Source: Pyramidobacter sp. YE332 (lineage in GTDB: Bacteria; Synergistota; Synergistia; Synergistales; Dethiosulfovibrionaceae). From it: a stretch of 64,000 bases of DNA. Below, piece after piece: positions 39,197 to 46,652 of the stretch; the first letter of the stretch is position 1, and each line of letters begins with the position of its first letter. The DNA lies in contig NZ_CP133038.1 of assembly GCF_033060595.1 (NCBI RefSeq), positions 558,001 through 622,000 on the forward strand, written 5' to 3'. The notes beneath the pieces were generated by a model that was not told the DNA's origin, searched no databases, and saw only the letters and a program-made list of their open reading frames with translations. The position numbers and the translations under genes are program-made.

Positions 39197-40522
39197 ATGA
39201 AACCGATCCTGTTTCAAAAAGCGCGCCTGATCGACCCCGATCTGAAAATGGACATGCGGGGCGATCTGCTGGTCGAAAACGGCGTCGTTTCCGCCCTCGG
39301 CCCCGAGCTGCTGCCGACCGCGGACGCCGAAAAGATCGACTGCGGCGGCGCAGTCCTGGCCCCAGGACTGGTCGATCTGCACGTGCATTTCCGCGATCCC
39401 GGCCAGACCGAAAAGGAAACATTGGAGACGGGCTGCGCCGCCGCGGCCAACGGCGGCTTCACGGCCGTAGTGACGATGGCCAACACCAAACCGGCCGTCG
39501 ATTCGCCCGAGCTGATCCGCAGCTGCATCAAGCGCAACCGGACCATGGACTGCCGCATCTATCCGGGGGGCGCGGTCACCAAGGGGCTGGGCGGCAAAGA
39601 ACTGACCGACTTCGAAGCGTTGAAGGAAGCCGGCGCGGTCTGCCTGACCGACGACGGCATCACCGTCGGCAGCGGGCCGCTGTTTTACGAAGCCATGGAA
39701 AAAGCGGCCGCCGTCGGCCTGCCCGTGAGCGTTCACTGCGAGGCTCCCGGCTTCGAAGGCGACCGCTCCATGAACCGCGGCGAGATCTCCAAAAAACTGG
39801 GGCTCGCCGGCGCGCCGGCGCTGGCCGAGGAGCTGATGATCATGCGCGACGTGTTCTTCGCCGAGAAGACGGGCGCGCATGTGCACGTGCAGCATGTCAG
39901 TTCGCGCCGCGGCGTCGAGATCATCGCGGCGGCGAAAGCCCGCGGCGTCGCCGTTACCGGCGAGGCCACGCCGCATCACATGTTCCTCGACGAAACGGCG
40001 ATTCTCGAATGCGGCGCCAACGCCAAGATGAGCCCGCCGCTGCGCACGGCCGACGACGCGGCGGCGATCCGCGAGGCGCTGATGAGCGGCGTGCTCGACG
40101 TGGTCGCCACCGATCACGCGCCGCACACGCCGGCCGAAAAAGCCCTCGGCATCGCCAAGGCCCCCAACGGCATCATCGGTCTGGAAACGTCGCTGGGGCT
40201 GTGCCTCGACGGATTGTGCCGCGAGCGTGGATTTTCGCTTTCCTCGCTGGTGGAGCGCATGAGCTCCGCGCCGCGGCGGATTTTCAAGCTGCCGCCCGTC
40301 CATCTTCAGCCCGGCTCGCCGGCCGATCTGACGCTGTTCGATCCCGAACGCCGCTGGCGCGTGGACGCGGCGAAGTTCAAATCGAAGGCGCGCAACTGTC
40401 CGTTCAACGGCTGGACGCTGAGCGGCACGGTCCTGATGACCGTGCTGGGCGGGAGGATCGTCTGCGATCGAAGAACTTTTCGTGCAATCGGTTGTATAAA
40501 ACGGTCCGTTGCGATACAATAA
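39197..40522 (+). CDS. pyrC: Dihydroorotase
   Basis: 441 residues, class I dihydroorotase length. Metal ligands: 'GLVDLHVHFRDPGQTEKET' near 58-76, 'VTKGLGGKELTDF' with the region of the bridging residue, 'SVHCEAPGFE', 'HVQHVSSRRGVEII' and 'VVATDHAPHTPAEK' near 308. It cyclises N-carbamoyl-aspartate to dihydroorotate. TAAGGAGG precedes ATG 39197. It heads a pyrC-K-D-F-E-R cluster that lacks the genes for the first two pathway steps (carbamoyl-phosphate synthase and aspartate carbamoyltransferase). Confidence 0.94.
   Translation: MKPILFQKARLIDPDLKMDMRGDLLVENGVVSALGPELLPTADAEKIDCGGAVLAPGLVDLHVHFRDPGQTEKETLETGCAAAANGGFTAVVTMANTKPAVDSPELIRSCIKRNRTMDCRIYPGGAVTKGLGGKELTDFEALKEAGAVCLTDDGITVGSGPLFYEAMEKAAAVGLPVSVHCEAPGFEGDRSMNRGEISKKLGLAGAPALAEELMIMRDVFFAEKTGAHVHVQHVSSRRGVEIIAAAKARGVAVTGEATPHHMFLDETAILECGANAKMSPPLRTADDAAAIREALMSGVLDVVATDHAPHTPAEKALGIAKAPNGIIGLETSLGLCLDGLCRERGFSLSSLVERMSSAPRRIFKLPPVHLQPGSPADLTLFDPERRWRVDAAKFKSKARNCPFNGWTLSGTVLMTVLGGRIVCDRRTFRAIGCIKRSVAIQ
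40492..40520 (+). promoter_or_regulatory. Internal promoter at the end of pyrC
   Basis: TTGTAT (40492-40497), 17-nt spacer, TACAAT (40515-40520). The start of transcription would fall near 40527, just before the long hairpin ahead of pyrK. Confidence 0.6.
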
Positions 40523-40532
40523 ATCCGTCGAT

Positions 40533-40593
40533 CGCGCGGCCGTTTGCACGGCGCGCCGGGGGGATGAAAGCGCGCCGTGCAAACGGCCGCGCG
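40533..40593 (+). promoter_or_regulatory. Long leader hairpin ahead of pyrK
   Basis: Perfect 24-bp arms (40533-40556 and 40570-40593) with a 13-nt loop CGGGGGGATGAAA. No U tract follows, so it is not a simple terminator. It would form at the very 5' end of a transcript from the 40492 promoter, 12 nt ahead of the pyrK ribosome site. Confidence 0.6.
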
Positions 40594-40621
40594 GGAAGCG
40601 CCAACGAGAGGGGAGTTTGGA

Positions 40622-41392
40622 TTGATTCGCGATTACGATTCGCGGCTGCTCGAAAAGGAACGGATCTCGCCGGACATCTGGCATTTGACGTTCGCGTGTC
40701 CAGAGATTGCCGAAAACGCGCGGCCGGGGAATTTCGTGCTGCTCAAAACGTCGGCCGCCACGGCGCCGCTGCTGCGCCGGCCGCTCGGCATCCTCGATGC
40801 CGACCCCGCAAAGGGGACGATCGAGACGCTTTTCCGCGTCGTTGGGCAGGGCACGGCTCTGCTGGCTGCCGCCGAACCTGGCGCGTCGCTTTCCGTGCGC
40901 GGGCCCGTAGGCGGGCAGTTCGCCCCGTTCCGGCACGAAAAAGTCTGGGGCGTGGCCGGCACGCTGGGCATCGCGCCGCTGCTGTTCCTGTGCCGCGAGC
41001 TGAACGGTTTCGACCGTCTGTTCCTCGGCGTCGGCAACGCCTCGTGGCGGAGCTTCGCCGACTGGGTGCGCGCCCGCGCGCCGGAGATGGTTTTGTACAG
41101 CGACGACGGTTCGATCGGACGCAGGGGATTTTCCATCGCCGGACTGGAAGGGCAGGATCTGAGCGACGTGTCGCTGGCCTGCTGCGGCCCCAATCCAATG
41201 ATGAAAGCGCTGTACGAACGGTACGGCGCGCAGTGCGACGACATCCAGGTCAGCCTCGAGCGCCGCATGGGCTGCGGCATGGGCGGCTGCTTCGGCTGCG
41301 TGGTCGACACCACGACGGGACGGCGGCGCGTCTGCATCGACGGCCCCGTGTTCCAGGCCAGGGAGGTGAAATGGGATGAGCTGCATCTCTGA
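40622..41392 (+). CDS. pyrK: Dihydroorotate dehydrogenase electron-transfer subunit
   Basis: 256 residues from TTG 40622, with GAGGGGAG upstream. FAD-binding 'LLRRPLGILD' near 50, NAD-binding region 'VAGTLGIAPLLFLCRE' near 115 and the [2Fe-2S] cysteines in 'RMGCGMGGCFGCVV' and 'VCIDGPVFQ' at the C-terminus. It passes electrons from PyrD to NAD. It overlaps pyrD by 17 nt, so the two are translationally coupled. Confidence 0.9.
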   Translation: MIRDYDSRLLEKERISPDIWHLTFACPEIAENARPGNFVLLKTSAATAPLLRRPLGILDADPAKGTIETLFRVVGQGTALLAAAEPGASLSVRGPVGGQFAPFRHEKVWGVAGTLGIAPLLFLCRELNGFDRLFLGVGNASWRSFADWVRARAPEMVLYSDDGSIGRRGFSIAGLEGQDLSDVSLACCGPNPMMKALYERYGAQCDDIQVSLERRMGCGMGGCFGCVVDTTTGRRRVCIDGPVFQAREVKWDELHL

Positions 41393-42305
41393 TCCGCTCG
41401 CGCTCGACGTCGGCGGCATGAAGCTGAAAGTCCCCGTCGTGATCGCGTCGGGCACGTGGGCTTACGAAGCCGGAATGTGGGCGGACGACCTGACGCGCCA
41501 CGTCGGCGCGATCTGTTCCAAAGCCATCACCAAGGATCCCTGCCCCGGTAATCCCGGCTGCCGCATCTGGGAGACGCCCTCGGGCGTTCTCAACAGCATC
41601 GGATTGCAGAACGAGGGCATCGACCGCTTCATCGACTGCCGTCTGCCCGACCTGAAAAAACGCGGCGTGCCCGTGATGCTCAACGTCTGTATGCAGAGCG
41701 CCGAAGATCTGGCTTACATGATGGACCGCATCGCCGAAGCCGGGGACATGGTCGACGGCGTGGAACTGAACGTTTCCTGCCCCAACACCGATCACGGCTG
41801 CATGAGCTGGGGCGTCGACCCGGCGCTGACGGCGCAGGCCACGGAGATGGCGCGCCGGCGCTGGGACGGCCCGTTGTGGGTGAAGCTGACGCCGCAGGCG
41901 CCCGACATTCCTGCGGTGGCGAAGGCCGCCGAGTCGGCCGGAGCCAGCGCGGTCGTGACCGCCAACACCTGGCTGGGCATGGCGATCGACACGCTGCGCG
42001 GGGTGCCGGTTTTCAGCCGCCGTGTGGCGGGACTTTCCGGCCCGGCCGTTTTTCCGCTGGCGCTGCGCGTCGTCTGGGACGCGGCCGGCGCCGTGAAAAT
42101 TCCAGTGATCGGCTGCGGCGGCGTGGACGGCCCCGATTCGGCGCTGGCCATGATCATGGCCGGAGCCAGCGCCGTGGAAGTCGGAGCGGCGCTGTTCGGC
42201 GATTTCAAAGTGCTTGAAAACGTCCACGAGGGATTGCTCGCCGCCGTGGAGCGCTGGAACGTCGCTTCCCTGGCCGAACTGATCGGCCGCGCCCGCCGCG
42301 CGTGA
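41376..42305 (+). CDS. pyrD: Dihydroorotate dehydrogenase, class 1B catalytic subunit
   Basis: 309 residues. FMN-barrel motifs: 'VVIASGTWAYEAGMW', 'SKAITKDPCPGNPGCRIWET' and 'NSIGLQNEGIDRFI'. The catalytic Cys is in 'GVELNVSCPNTDHGC', typical of class 1B, with 'VIGCGGVDGPDSALAMIMAG' for phosphate binding. It oxidises dihydroorotate to orotate together with PyrK. Confidence 0.94.
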   Translation: MSCISDPLALDVGGMKLKVPVVIASGTWAYEAGMWADDLTRHVGAICSKAITKDPCPGNPGCRIWETPSGVLNSIGLQNEGIDRFIDCRLPDLKKRGVPVMLNVCMQSAEDLAYMMDRIAEAGDMVDGVELNVSCPNTDHGCMSWGVDPALTAQATEMARRRWDGPLWVKLTPQAPDIPAVAKAAESAGASAVVTANTWLGMAIDTLRGVPVFSRRVAGLSGPAVFPLALRVVWDAAGAVKIPVIGCGGVDGPDSALAMIMAGASAVEVGAALFGDFKVLENVHEGLLAAVERWNVASLAELIGRARRA

Positions 42306-42364
42306 GCACGCGAAAATTTTGTCAAAAAAACGGGATCGATCCTATCAACGTGAGGAGTGCTTTT

Positions 42365-43084
42365 ATGACCGAACACACATCTTTGCCGCTGTTTGCGGCG
42401 CTCGACCTCGACACGCTGCGCGAGGCGCGCCGCACGATGGACGCCCTTTCGGGAATCGTGGACGCCATCAAGATCGGCCCGCGCCTCTACGCTCAGGGCG
42501 GCGCGCCGTTTCTGAAGGAGATCGTCGACCACGGTTTCAAACTGTTTCTCGACCTGAAGCTGCACGACATCCCCAACACCGTGCGCCTGGCCGTGGAGAC
42601 GCTGGCCGACCTTGGCATCTTCTGTCTGACGCTGCAGGCCGCGGGCGGCCGCCGCATGATGGAGGAATCTGTCGCCGCCCGCGATCGGCTCGGCTCGACC
42701 ATGAAGCTGCTCGGCATCACCGTGCTGACCAGCTTCGACGAAAAAAGCTGGGACGAAGTCGCGCCCGGCTGCCCGATGGACGTGGCCATCAAAAAGCGCG
42801 CCTGGCTGTGCGGAGACTGCGGCATGGACGGGCTGGTGTGCTCGCCGCTCGATCTGCCCGAGGTGCGCGCCGTGACGCCGCCGACGCTGCTCAAGGTCGT
42901 GCCCGGCGTGCGCCTCGTCGCCGGCGGCGACGACCAGAGCCGCGTCGCCACGCCCGCCGACGCGTTCCGCAACGGCGCCGATTACATCGTCATGGGGCGT
43001 CCCATCTACAAAGCGCCCGACGTTCGCAAGGCGGTCGAAGAGATCGCCCGATCCATTGAGGAGGGATTGGCATGTCGGAAGTGA
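42365..43084 (+). CDS. pyrF: Orotidine-5'-phosphate decarboxylase
   Basis: 239 residues from ATG 42365, with GAGGAG upstream. Catalytic 'FLDLKLHDIPNTV' near 61-73, substrate loop 'GLVCSPLDLPEVR' and phosphate-binding 'NGADYIVMGRPIYKAPD'. It makes UMP from OMP. It overlaps pyrE by 13 nt. Confidence 0.94.
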   Translation: MTEHTSLPLFAALDLDTLREARRTMDALSGIVDAIKIGPRLYAQGGAPFLKEIVDHGFKLFLDLKLHDIPNTVRLAVETLADLGIFCLTLQAAGGRRMMEESVAARDRLGSTMKLLGITVLTSFDEKSWDEVAPGCPMDVAIKKRAWLCGDCGMDGLVCSPLDLPEVRAVTPPTLLKVVPGVRLVAGGDDQSRVATPADAFRNGADYIVMGRPIYKAPDVRKAVEEIARSIEEGLACRK

Positions 43085-43674
43085 TGACGGATTCTCAGGT
43101 ACAGGAAAAACTGAAAGAGATGCTCGTCGAGAGCAAAGCGTGGCTTGAGGGGCATTTCAAGCTCACCTCGGGGCGACACAGCGGCAACTACATGCAGTGC
43201 GCCATGCTGCTGCGCTTTCCCAAATACGCGGCGTTCGCCGGCGGCGAGATCGCCAAACGGATCGCCGCGTTCAGGCCCGACTTCATCGTCTCGCCGGCGC
43301 TGGGGGGGCTGATCATCGGACATGAGGTGGCGCGCGCGCTGGATATTCCATTTTTGTTCTGCGAACGTGAGGAAGGCAAAATGAAGCTGCGCCGCTTCCC
43401 GATGCCGGTCGGCAAACGTTTCGTCGCCGTCGAGGATGTCGTCACCACGGGCGGCTCCGTCAAGGAGACCGCCGAGCACATGATCGCCGGCGGCTGCGTC
43501 TGGGCCGGTTCTGCCTGCATCGTCGACCGCTCCGGCGGCGCGCAGCAGCTCGGGGCCGAGCTCGTTTCGCTCTTCAAGGTCTCTTTCCCCACCTGGGAAG
43601 CCGACGACTGCCCGCTGTGCCGCGAACTGGGCACGCCTCCCGTCAAGCCCGGCAGCCGGCTCAACGCGAAGTAG
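43072..43674 (+). CDS. pyrE: Orotate phosphoribosyltransferase
   Basis: 200 residues. 'FKLTSGRHSGNYMQCAML' near the N-terminus and the PRPP-binding motif 'FVAVEDVVTTGGSVKE' near 118. The C-terminus carries 'DDCPLCRELGTPPVKPGS'. It joins orotate to PRPP to give OMP. Confidence 0.93.
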   Translation: MSEVMTDSQVQEKLKEMLVESKAWLEGHFKLTSGRHSGNYMQCAMLLRFPKYAAFAGGEIAKRIAAFRPDFIVSPALGGLIIGHEVARALDIPFLFCEREEGKMKLRRFPMPVGKRFVAVEDVVTTGGSVKETAEHMIAGGCVWAGSACIVDRSGGAQQLGAELVSLFKVSFPTWEADDCPLCRELGTPPVKPGSRLNAK

Positions 43675-43710
43675 AAAAACGATCCTTTTACGACTGGAGG
43701 CGACGCGGCG

Positions 43711-44256
43711 TTGAAACTGAAAGAAAAAGCCGTCGTGATGACGGCCGAAGACATGGAGCGCGCCTTGCGCCGCATGGGCAACGAGATCGTCGAACGCAAC
43801 CACGGCGCCGACGACCTCGTCATCATCGGCATCCAGCGCCGCGGCGTCTATCTGGCCGGACGGCTGCGCGAGTTCCTGCGCGCCTCCGAAGGCGTCAAGC
43901 TGCCGCTGGGCGAACTGGACATCACGCTGTACCGTGACGACATCACGCTGCTCAGCGACCAGCCTGTCGTGCACAGCACCGCCATTCCCGTCGACGTCAA
44001 TGGCCGCCGCATCATCCTCGTCGACGACGTGCTGTACACAGGACGCACGATCCGCGCCGCGCTGGAAGCCATCGGCGACATCGGCCGCCCCGCCTGCGTG
44101 CAGCTGCTGATCCTCATCGACCGCGGCCATCGCGAGCTGCCGATCCAGCCCGACTATCTCGGCAAGGCCGTGCCCACCTCGTCGCAGGAGATCGTGGACG
44201 TGCGCGTCAAAGAGCTGGACGGCGAGGACGTCGCCGTGATCTGCGCCAAAGCCTAG
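43711..44256 (+). CDS. pyrR: Pyrimidine operon regulator / uracil phosphoribosyltransferase PyrR
   Basis: 181 residues from TTG 43711, with GGAGG about 10 nt upstream. The PRPP motif is 'IILVDDVLYTGRTIRAALEA' near 102, and other family features are 'IIGIQRRGVYLAGRL' and 'LYRDDITLLSDQPVV'. PyrR binds pyr mRNA when UMP is high and also has weak uracil phosphoribosyltransferase activity. It is last rather than first in this cluster. I could not find a clear PyrR-binding loop ahead of pyrC. Confidence 0.9.
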   Translation: MKLKEKAVVMTAEDMERALRRMGNEIVERNHGADDLVIIGIQRRGVYLAGRLREFLRASEGVKLPLGELDITLYRDDITLLSDQPVVHSTAIPVDVNGRRIILVDDVLYTGRTIRAALEAIGDIGRPACVQLLILIDRGHRELPIQPDYLGKAVPTSSQEIVDVRVKELDGEDVAVICAKA

Positions 44257-44258
44257 CC

Positions 44259-45113
44259 ATGCGCCGGTTCCGAATCGTCCTCTGCGGCGCGGCGCTGTTG
44301 CTGGGCGCGCTGTCGGCCGCCGCCGCGGAAAAAACGCGTGTGCTGGCGCTCGATCCGATGACCGAGCTGCTGTTTCAATTTATCGGCGGCCCTTATGTGA
44401 GCACTGCATCCGGCGCGAGCTGGGACGACAACGGCCGCCTGCGCGTCAGCCGCGCCGCCGTCATGGGCAGCGCGAACGCGGCGCTGCCGCTTTACGCGCT
44501 CGACCCGGCGCAGTATCGCGAGTTCATGACGGCCGGCCGCCGCGGCAAGAATCTGACCGCCGCCGAGCAAAACCGCGCCAATCTGCATTATCTTTATCCC
44601 GACGGCGTGAAGCGCGGCGACGTCGACGCCTTTTACGGCGATCCTGCCAACATGCCGTTCACCGCGCAGCAGGTCGCAAACGCCCTCAGCGAACTCGTCC
44701 CCGCGCGCTATGCCTACTTCCAGCGCCGTCTCGGCGAGTTCAACGCGCGCCTCCGCTCCGTGCTGATCACCGGACGCCGTCTCATGACGGGCACGAAGGT
44801 GCTCTGCCTGAGCGAACGGTATCGTCTCTTCTTCGCCGCTTTCGGCTGCACCGTCAGCGTTCCGACCGAGGAGGAAATGCGGCGCATCCGTCAGATCAGC
44901 CAGGCTTCCAATCCGAAATACATCGAAAGCCTCGCCGCCGGCCTGGCCGCCGGACGCCTCGTGGTCGTCGCTCACGATGCCGATCCCAAGCTCCGCCGCG
45001 CCTTGGTCGCCCATCTCGGGGCCGTTTACATCGCGCCGCCGAAGAACGAGGACATCCTGTTTTTCATGCACCGCGTCCTCCTCGACGTCGGTTCCCGTCT
45101 CAGCCGCCGTTGA
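44259..45113 (+). CDS. Exported protein, degenerate ZnuA/TroA-like
   Basis: 284 residues, starting 2 nt after the pyrR stop. Signal peptide 1-22. The middle part 'NMPFTAQQVANALSELVPAR' with 'YFQRRLGEFNARL', and the later 'LAAGRLVVVAHDADPKLRR', follow the layout of periplasmic zinc/manganese-binding proteins. However, the usual His ligands are not evident. It may bind something other than a metal. The family link is by pattern only. Confidence 0.5.
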   Translation: MRRFRIVLCGAALLLGALSAAAAEKTRVLALDPMTELLFQFIGGPYVSTASGASWDDNGRLRVSRAAVMGSANAALPLYALDPAQYREFMTAGRRGKNLTAAEQNRANLHYLYPDGVKRGDVDAFYGDPANMPFTAQQVANALSELVPARYAYFQRRLGEFNARLRSVLITGRRLMTGTKVLCLSERYRLFFAAFGCTVSVPTEEEMRRIRQISQASNPKYIESLAAGLAAGRLVVVAHDADPKLRRALVAHLGAVYIAPPKNEDILFFMHRVLLDVGSRLSRR

Positions 45114-45311: not shown

Positions 45312-46358
45312 TCATACGCAGACGATGCGCCCCGTGCCGGGCTTGAAGCGGCCGATCACGCCGGCGCGGTCGAAACCGTGCCGTTTGGCGAGCGCTGCGA
45401 TTTCTTCGGCGTCTTCCGGCGGGCAGGCCATCATCAGGCCGCCGGAAGTCTGCGTGTCGAAGAGGAAGTCGCGGTACGTGCGCGATACTTTTTCGAGACG
45501 GTCGATCTGCGGCGCATAGAGCTTTTCGTTGCGGTAACCGCCGGCGGGAAACAATCCCATCTGGGCGAGGTCGGCCGCGCCGTCGAGCAGCGGCAGAGCC
45601 TCGACGCTCAGTTCGAGGTCGACGCGGTGGTCGGAAACCATGTCGAGCGCGTGCCCGGCCAGGCCGAAGCCGGTGACGTCCGTGGCGGCGTGGACGCGGC
45701 GGCGCTGCTCGGCCGTCATGCGGCGGGGCAGGTCGTTGAGCGCCGTCATCCAGCGCACGGCCTCCGCCGCCTGCGCGGGATCGGCCATTTCCGCCTTGAT
45801 GGCGGTGGCCATGATGCCCGTGCCGAGCGGCTTGGTGAGCACGAGCGCGTCGCCGGGATGCGCGCCGGTGGTGCGCCACATGGCGTCGCGTTCCACTTCG
45901 CCGAAGACGCAGAGCCCGTACTTGGGCTCCTGATCCTCGACGCTGTGCCCGCCCATGAGAAAAGCGCCGCTTTCGGACACTTTCGAAGCGCCGCCTTCCA
46001 TGAGGCGCTTGAGCATGTCCAGCGGCAGACAGTTGAGCGGGAAGGCGACGATGTTGAGCGCCACGAACGGCGAGCCGCCCATGGCGAAGACGTCGCTGAT
46101 CGAATTGGCGGCGGCGATCTGCCCCCACACGTAAGGATCGTCGACGACCGGCGTGATGAAGTCGAGCGTGAGGATGCCGACGCGCTCTTCGGTGATCTTC
46201 CACAGCGCCGCGTCCTCGCCCCCTTCCCAGTCGGTGAGGATACGGCCGTCGTGGGGACGGGGGAGATCCGCCAAAACTTTCGCCAGGTCCTCCGGACCTA
46301 TTTTGGCGGCTCAGCCGCTGCTGTGGGAAAGTTGGGTCAGTCGTTGGTCAAGGCTCAT
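45312..46358 (-). CDS. selD: Selenophosphate synthase, itself a selenoprotein (UGA = Sec16)
   Basis: 348 residues if the in-frame TGA at 46311-46313 is read as selenocysteine. The N-terminus from ATG 46358 is 'MSLDQRLTQLSHSSG', then U, then 'AAKIGPEDLAKVLADL', exactly where SelD enzymes carry their catalytic Cys or Sec. Later motifs: 'ILTLDFITPVVDDPYVWGQI', 'ANSISDVFAMGG', 'FLMGGHSVEDQEPKYG' and 'DVTGFGLAGH'. It makes selenophosphate from selenide and ATP. A hairpin directly after the UGA fits a bacterial SECIS. Starting the gene downstream of the TGA would lose the active site. Confidence 0.93.
46268..46309 (-). promoter_or_regulatory. Predicted SECIS element in selD
   Basis: Outer 9-bp stem (46268-46276 with 46301-46309) enclosing an AGGTCC-GGA-GGACCT minihelix. 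It begins one base downstream of the UGA codon on the minus strand, the position required for SelB-dependent decoding. Confidence 0.75.
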
Positions 46359-46433: not shown

Positions 46434-46652
46434 TCAGCGGCGGAAGAAGAGGTTGGCGAGGACGGTGAGGACGACGCTGACGACGATTGAGCTGGCGAGC
46501 GGGAAATGAATCGACCAGTTCTTGCCCTGCCAGGCAAAGTCGCCGGGCAGGCGGCCGAGGGGCAGAAAGCGCCCGCCGAAGTGGACGACGGCCCCGACGG
46601 CGAACAGCGCGAGACCGATGATCATGATGGTTTTGCCGATGTCGTGAACCAT
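46434..46652 (-). CDS. DUF2905 small membrane protein
   Basis: 72 residues with two hydrophobic helices (about 8-28 and 52-70). The linker 'PLGRLPGDFAWQGKNWSIHF' and the C-terminal 'SIVVSVVLTVLANLFFRR' match the DUF2905 pattern. Its function is unknown. It lies divergent from prfB and upstream of selD on the same strand. Confidence 0.8.
   Translation of the reverse strand: MVHDIGKTIMIIGLALFAVGAVVHFGGRFLPLGRLPGDFAWQGKNWSIHFPLASSIVVSVVLTVLANLFFRR

Follow-up and report, generated by a model that had tools for sequence, protein, structure and literature searches.

The selD gene and its in-frame UGA

The selD locus of Pyramidobacter sp. YE332 carries a UGA codon close to its start, raising the question as to whether selenocysteine (Sec) is inserted there, some other residue is inserted, or the gene is broken. 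A preliminary description had placed the start of selD at ATG 46358 and an in-frame TGA at 46311-46313 as codon 16, followed by an open SelD frame to 45312, and translation with TGA as Sec confirmed these coordinates. The features below are numbered within the window, i.e., the whole stretch of 64,000 nucleotides that was analyzed.

45312-46358, minus strand: selD, encoding selenide, water dikinase (selenophosphate synthetase); assigned by translation with TGA as Sec, by TIGR00476 and by sequence match to PDB 3u0o and 2yye
46311-46313, minus strand: in-frame UGA, predicted Sec codon, codon 16 of selD; opposite the C of SSGCAAK in the 2yye alignment, with TGA conserved in Synergistota
46285-46299, minus strand: apical hairpin AGGUCC-GGA-GGACCU, predicted bacterial SECIS; loop 17 nt after the UGA, a register conserved in 76 of 87 distinct sequences
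46268-46309, minus strand: whole predicted two-part fold; lower stem 46309-46300/46277-46268

Read in this way, the predicted selD product has 348 aa, residue 16 being Sec within the peptide SSG-U-AAKIG, and the gene ends at its own TGA (45314-45312), UGA thus being the terminal stop of selD as well. Comparison with TIGR00476, the NCBIfam SelD equivalog, gave 350 bits against a cut-off of 125 and covered positions 1-310 of the 311 in the model; both AIRS domains were matched. In the alignment with 2yye, U16 and K19 fall on the C and K of SSGCAAK, which places the UGA at the catalytic Cys/Sec position, as had been proposed, with the Lys three residues on that marks members of the SelD family. 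The nearest named record, at 99% protein identity, is from Pyramidobacter sp. C12-8. The plain ORF list of the locus gives a 320-aa frame alone, beginning at an internal TTG at 46274; the earlier warning that plain gene calling truncates selD was justified, and annotation should present selD as encoding a full-length selenoprotein, not a truncated SelD. When the window was scanned for further UGA-split frames, mainly apparent wrong-frame ORFs of a G+C-rich genome were obtained.

Just upstream of selD and on the same strand lies a gene for a DUF2905 protein of 72 aa (46437-46652). On the other side, the plus strand carries a run of pyrimidine genes (39197-44256) encoding dihydroorotase, a DHOD electron-transfer subunit, DHOD, OMP decarboxylase and two phosphoribosyltransferases, pyrE- and pyrR-like. 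This run is followed by a gene for an unknown protein with a weak ZnuA match (44259-45113), convergent with selD. A very strong terminator-like inverted repeat, with 20 pairs counted and then TTTT, is located downstream of selD at 45248-45202. A search for a sigma-70-like promoter near selD found none.

Sec machinery and selenium use in the host genome

The host genome (Pyramidobacter, Synergistota; 2.80 Mb, 97% complete) had been expected to encode SelA, SelB and tRNA-Sec outside this locus, and the search recovered all three, the set required of a bacterium with selenoprotein genes. The tRNA-Sec is located on contig C1 at 1467886-1467980 (66.3 bits; gathering threshold 47), where ARAGORN likewise called tRNA-SeC with anticodon tca. 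The selA gene lies at C1:1811654-1813018 (553.5 bits), and selB adjoins it on the downstream side (368 bits in one frame). A second gene with an in-frame UGA is grdA, with the motif ECFV-UGA-TAAGAMD; grdA is a classic selenoprotein gene. Only one copy of SelD is present. Neither the selenouridine synthase (mnmH; TIGR03167) nor YqeB (yqeB; TIGR03309) was found in the host genome, and Sec therefore appears to be the sole known use of selenophosphate in this organism.

Distribution of the UGA codon across Synergistota

We surveyed 188 Synergistota genomes, 124 of which had a SelD match at E <= 1e-40. The codon at the Sec site was UGA in 116 of these matches and TGC (Cys) in six, and the other two were fragments short of the site; a conserved in-frame UGA with Cys in other homologs is the pattern by which bacterial selenoprotein genes are recognized. 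The closest relatives retain UGA at this site, with no sense codon among them. A tRNA-Sec scoring over the cut-off was present in 103 of the 116 genomes with UGA-SelD, and the co-occurrence was significant (Fisher p = 6e-16, relatedness ignored). Among the 13 remaining genomes, 11 encode SelB, including one (G027) with a partial tRNA-Sec match of 65 bases, and the two that have neither are 55-66% complete. The six Cys-SelDs (L126-L131) belong to the same SelD family and carry their Cys at the homologous position, but they differ in the TGC codon, in a sequence identity of 39-43%, and in that both tRNA-Sec and SelB are missing from five of the six genomes, the sixth (G147) having both. This distribution of UGA and Cys relative to tRNA-Sec and SelB is as expected if the UGA is read as Sec.

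Two genomes deserve separate mention. In G147 the Cys-SelD (L131, contig C297) adjoins selB and tRNA-Sec; this organism is a Sec user with a non-selenoprotein SelD, in a phylum in which nearly all SelDs are predicted selenoproteins. A one-contig relative of the same family, 96% complete, contains UGA-SelD and SelB (G114, locus L139). Its tRNA-Sec was found neither by the covariance model nor by DNA similarity to the tRNA-Sec of its sister, possibly due to absent sequence or a diverged tRNA; this genome counts against the reading of UGA as Sec.

The predicted SECIS hairpin

The preliminary description had noted a two-part hairpin starting one base after the UGA. The position was correct and the apical hairpin is conserved among relatives, whereas the lower half is not; the lower stem, considered as a conserved part, was rejected, being present in some relatives only. 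In the apical hairpin, 46299-46294 pairs with 46290-46285 around a loop at 46293-46291. Published rules for bacterial SECIS elements specify an apical loop of 3-9 nt, an upper stem of 4-16 bp, a G in the first two loop bases, a distance of 16-37 nt from the UGA and an energy <= -7.5 (PMC13188914). The selD hairpin agrees with all of them, with a GGA loop (3 nt, starting GG), a stem of 6-7 bp, a spacing of 17 and a helix energy of -8.4 kcal/mol. The segment 46320-46250 folds at -29.8 kcal/mol, with z = -2.66 relative to dinucleotide shuffles, 5 of 200 of which were as good. When the same peptide was recoded synonymously 2000 times, 298 of the variants (15%) formed an apical hairpin that equaled or surpassed the native one. 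The fold of this single sequence is thus weak evidence for a SECIS, and since it is unexceptional against its recodings, the proof has to be comparative. At the gathering threshold Rfam gave no match in the window, so no curated RNA family backs the predicted SECIS.

The comparison of 87 distinct sequences from relatives provides strong evidence for the predicted hairpin. More than half of them (52/87) reached p <= 0.05 against their own synonymous recodings. Codon usage at the pairing sites was biased: GGU was the Gly codon in 77 of 80 cases against a background of 10%, AUA the Ile codon in 73 of 84 against 33%, and GCG the Ala codon in 73 of 73 against 32%. Synonymous sites are thus constrained where the predicted pairing demands it. 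One stem pair is changed from G-C to C-G, a compensatory change, in five sequences in which the protein changes from Gly to Ala and from Asp to Glu; all five belong to one family, f8, and may therefore reflect a single event. The same pair is G-U in nine sequences. Conservation of the UGA and the hairpin spans Synergistota.

The loop register is +20 in nine sequences from families f6 and f8 (L088, L092, L099, L113, L114, L116, L117, L120 and L121), where the usual register is broken and the hairpin, with its GGA loop, lies 3 nt farther from the UGA. L122 looks like a tenth such case, with one mismatch.

Reading of the UGA codon

The gene, the position of its UGA, the hairpin and the machinery are evident at the sequence level. 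With the machinery present, the UGA kept in the closest relatives and a hairpin of bSECIS type conserved, the earlier reading of the locus as a selenoprotein gene is supported, neither of the outcomes that the preliminary description had named as refuting it being observed, and UGA codon 16 is almost certainly read as Sec via SelB and the hairpin. Based on the known family, we infer Sec insertion and SelD catalysis as follows. SelB carrying Sec-tRNA-Sec would bind the apical hairpin just 3' of codon 16, and the ribosome would insert Sec at this codon with no stop. The full-length SelD would then convert selenide and ATP to selenophosphate, and SelA would use this to produce the Sec-tRNA-Sec needed for SelD as well as for other selenoproteins such as GrdA.

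It is very improbable that suppression inserts another residue, such as Cys or Trp, in place of Sec. Synthesis of a Sec-containing SelD itself needs selenophosphate, and in a genome in which no second SelD was found the cycle could be started by some readthrough that inserts a residue other than Sec; against suppression stand the dedicated Sec machinery, its co-occurrence with UGA-SelD in the phylum and the use of UGA as the terminator of selD. A sequencing error or nonsense mutation, leaving a pseudogene or a protein translated from TTG 46274, would account for plain ORF calling giving the 320-aa frame alone, but it can be practically dismissed, being refuted by the same TGA in 116 genomes and the conserved hairpin, by the loss of the catalytic Sec and Lys loop from the truncated form, and by this being the sole SelD of a genome with selA, selB and tRNA-Sec.

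A wider proposal is tentative, and we lean somewhat less toward it than away from it. The SECIS may shift between the +17 and +20 registers while the residues that immediately follow Sec (Gly/Ala, Asp/Glu) vary so as to maintain the RNA stem, so that the RNA would shape the active-site loop; in addition, a sole Sec-SelD, with Sec as the apparent sole use of selenophosphate, may form a closed loop started by a leaky non-Sec form. As the sole SelD needs its own product, this genome is a clean case in which to ask what sets a cycle of this kind in motion.

Comparison with known systems

Among bacterial selenoproteins, the Sec-containing form of SelD is one of the two with the widest distribution (PMC1794560). 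Synergistetes was named a selenoprotein-rich phylum in 2016, with 13 of 14 organisms using Sec (PMC5029168), and Aminobacterium and Cloacibacillus figure in deep-Sep (PMC12013277). The available parts of these two accounts (PMC5029168, PMC12013277) do not name this Pyramidobacter selD. Our finding of a Sec-containing SelD is correct but ordinary, as the phenomenon is already known. A selenoprotein SelD is indeed a textbook case, and the SelD of Aquifex aeolicus (PDB 2yye/2zod) is one that we take to be a Sec-containing SelD, or SPS2. Compared with the Sec-containing SelD/SPS2 of bacteria, the Pyramidobacter protein has a sequence that is only moderately alike, with no essential difference, and it shares the same SSG-[U/C]-AAK motif, length and domains.
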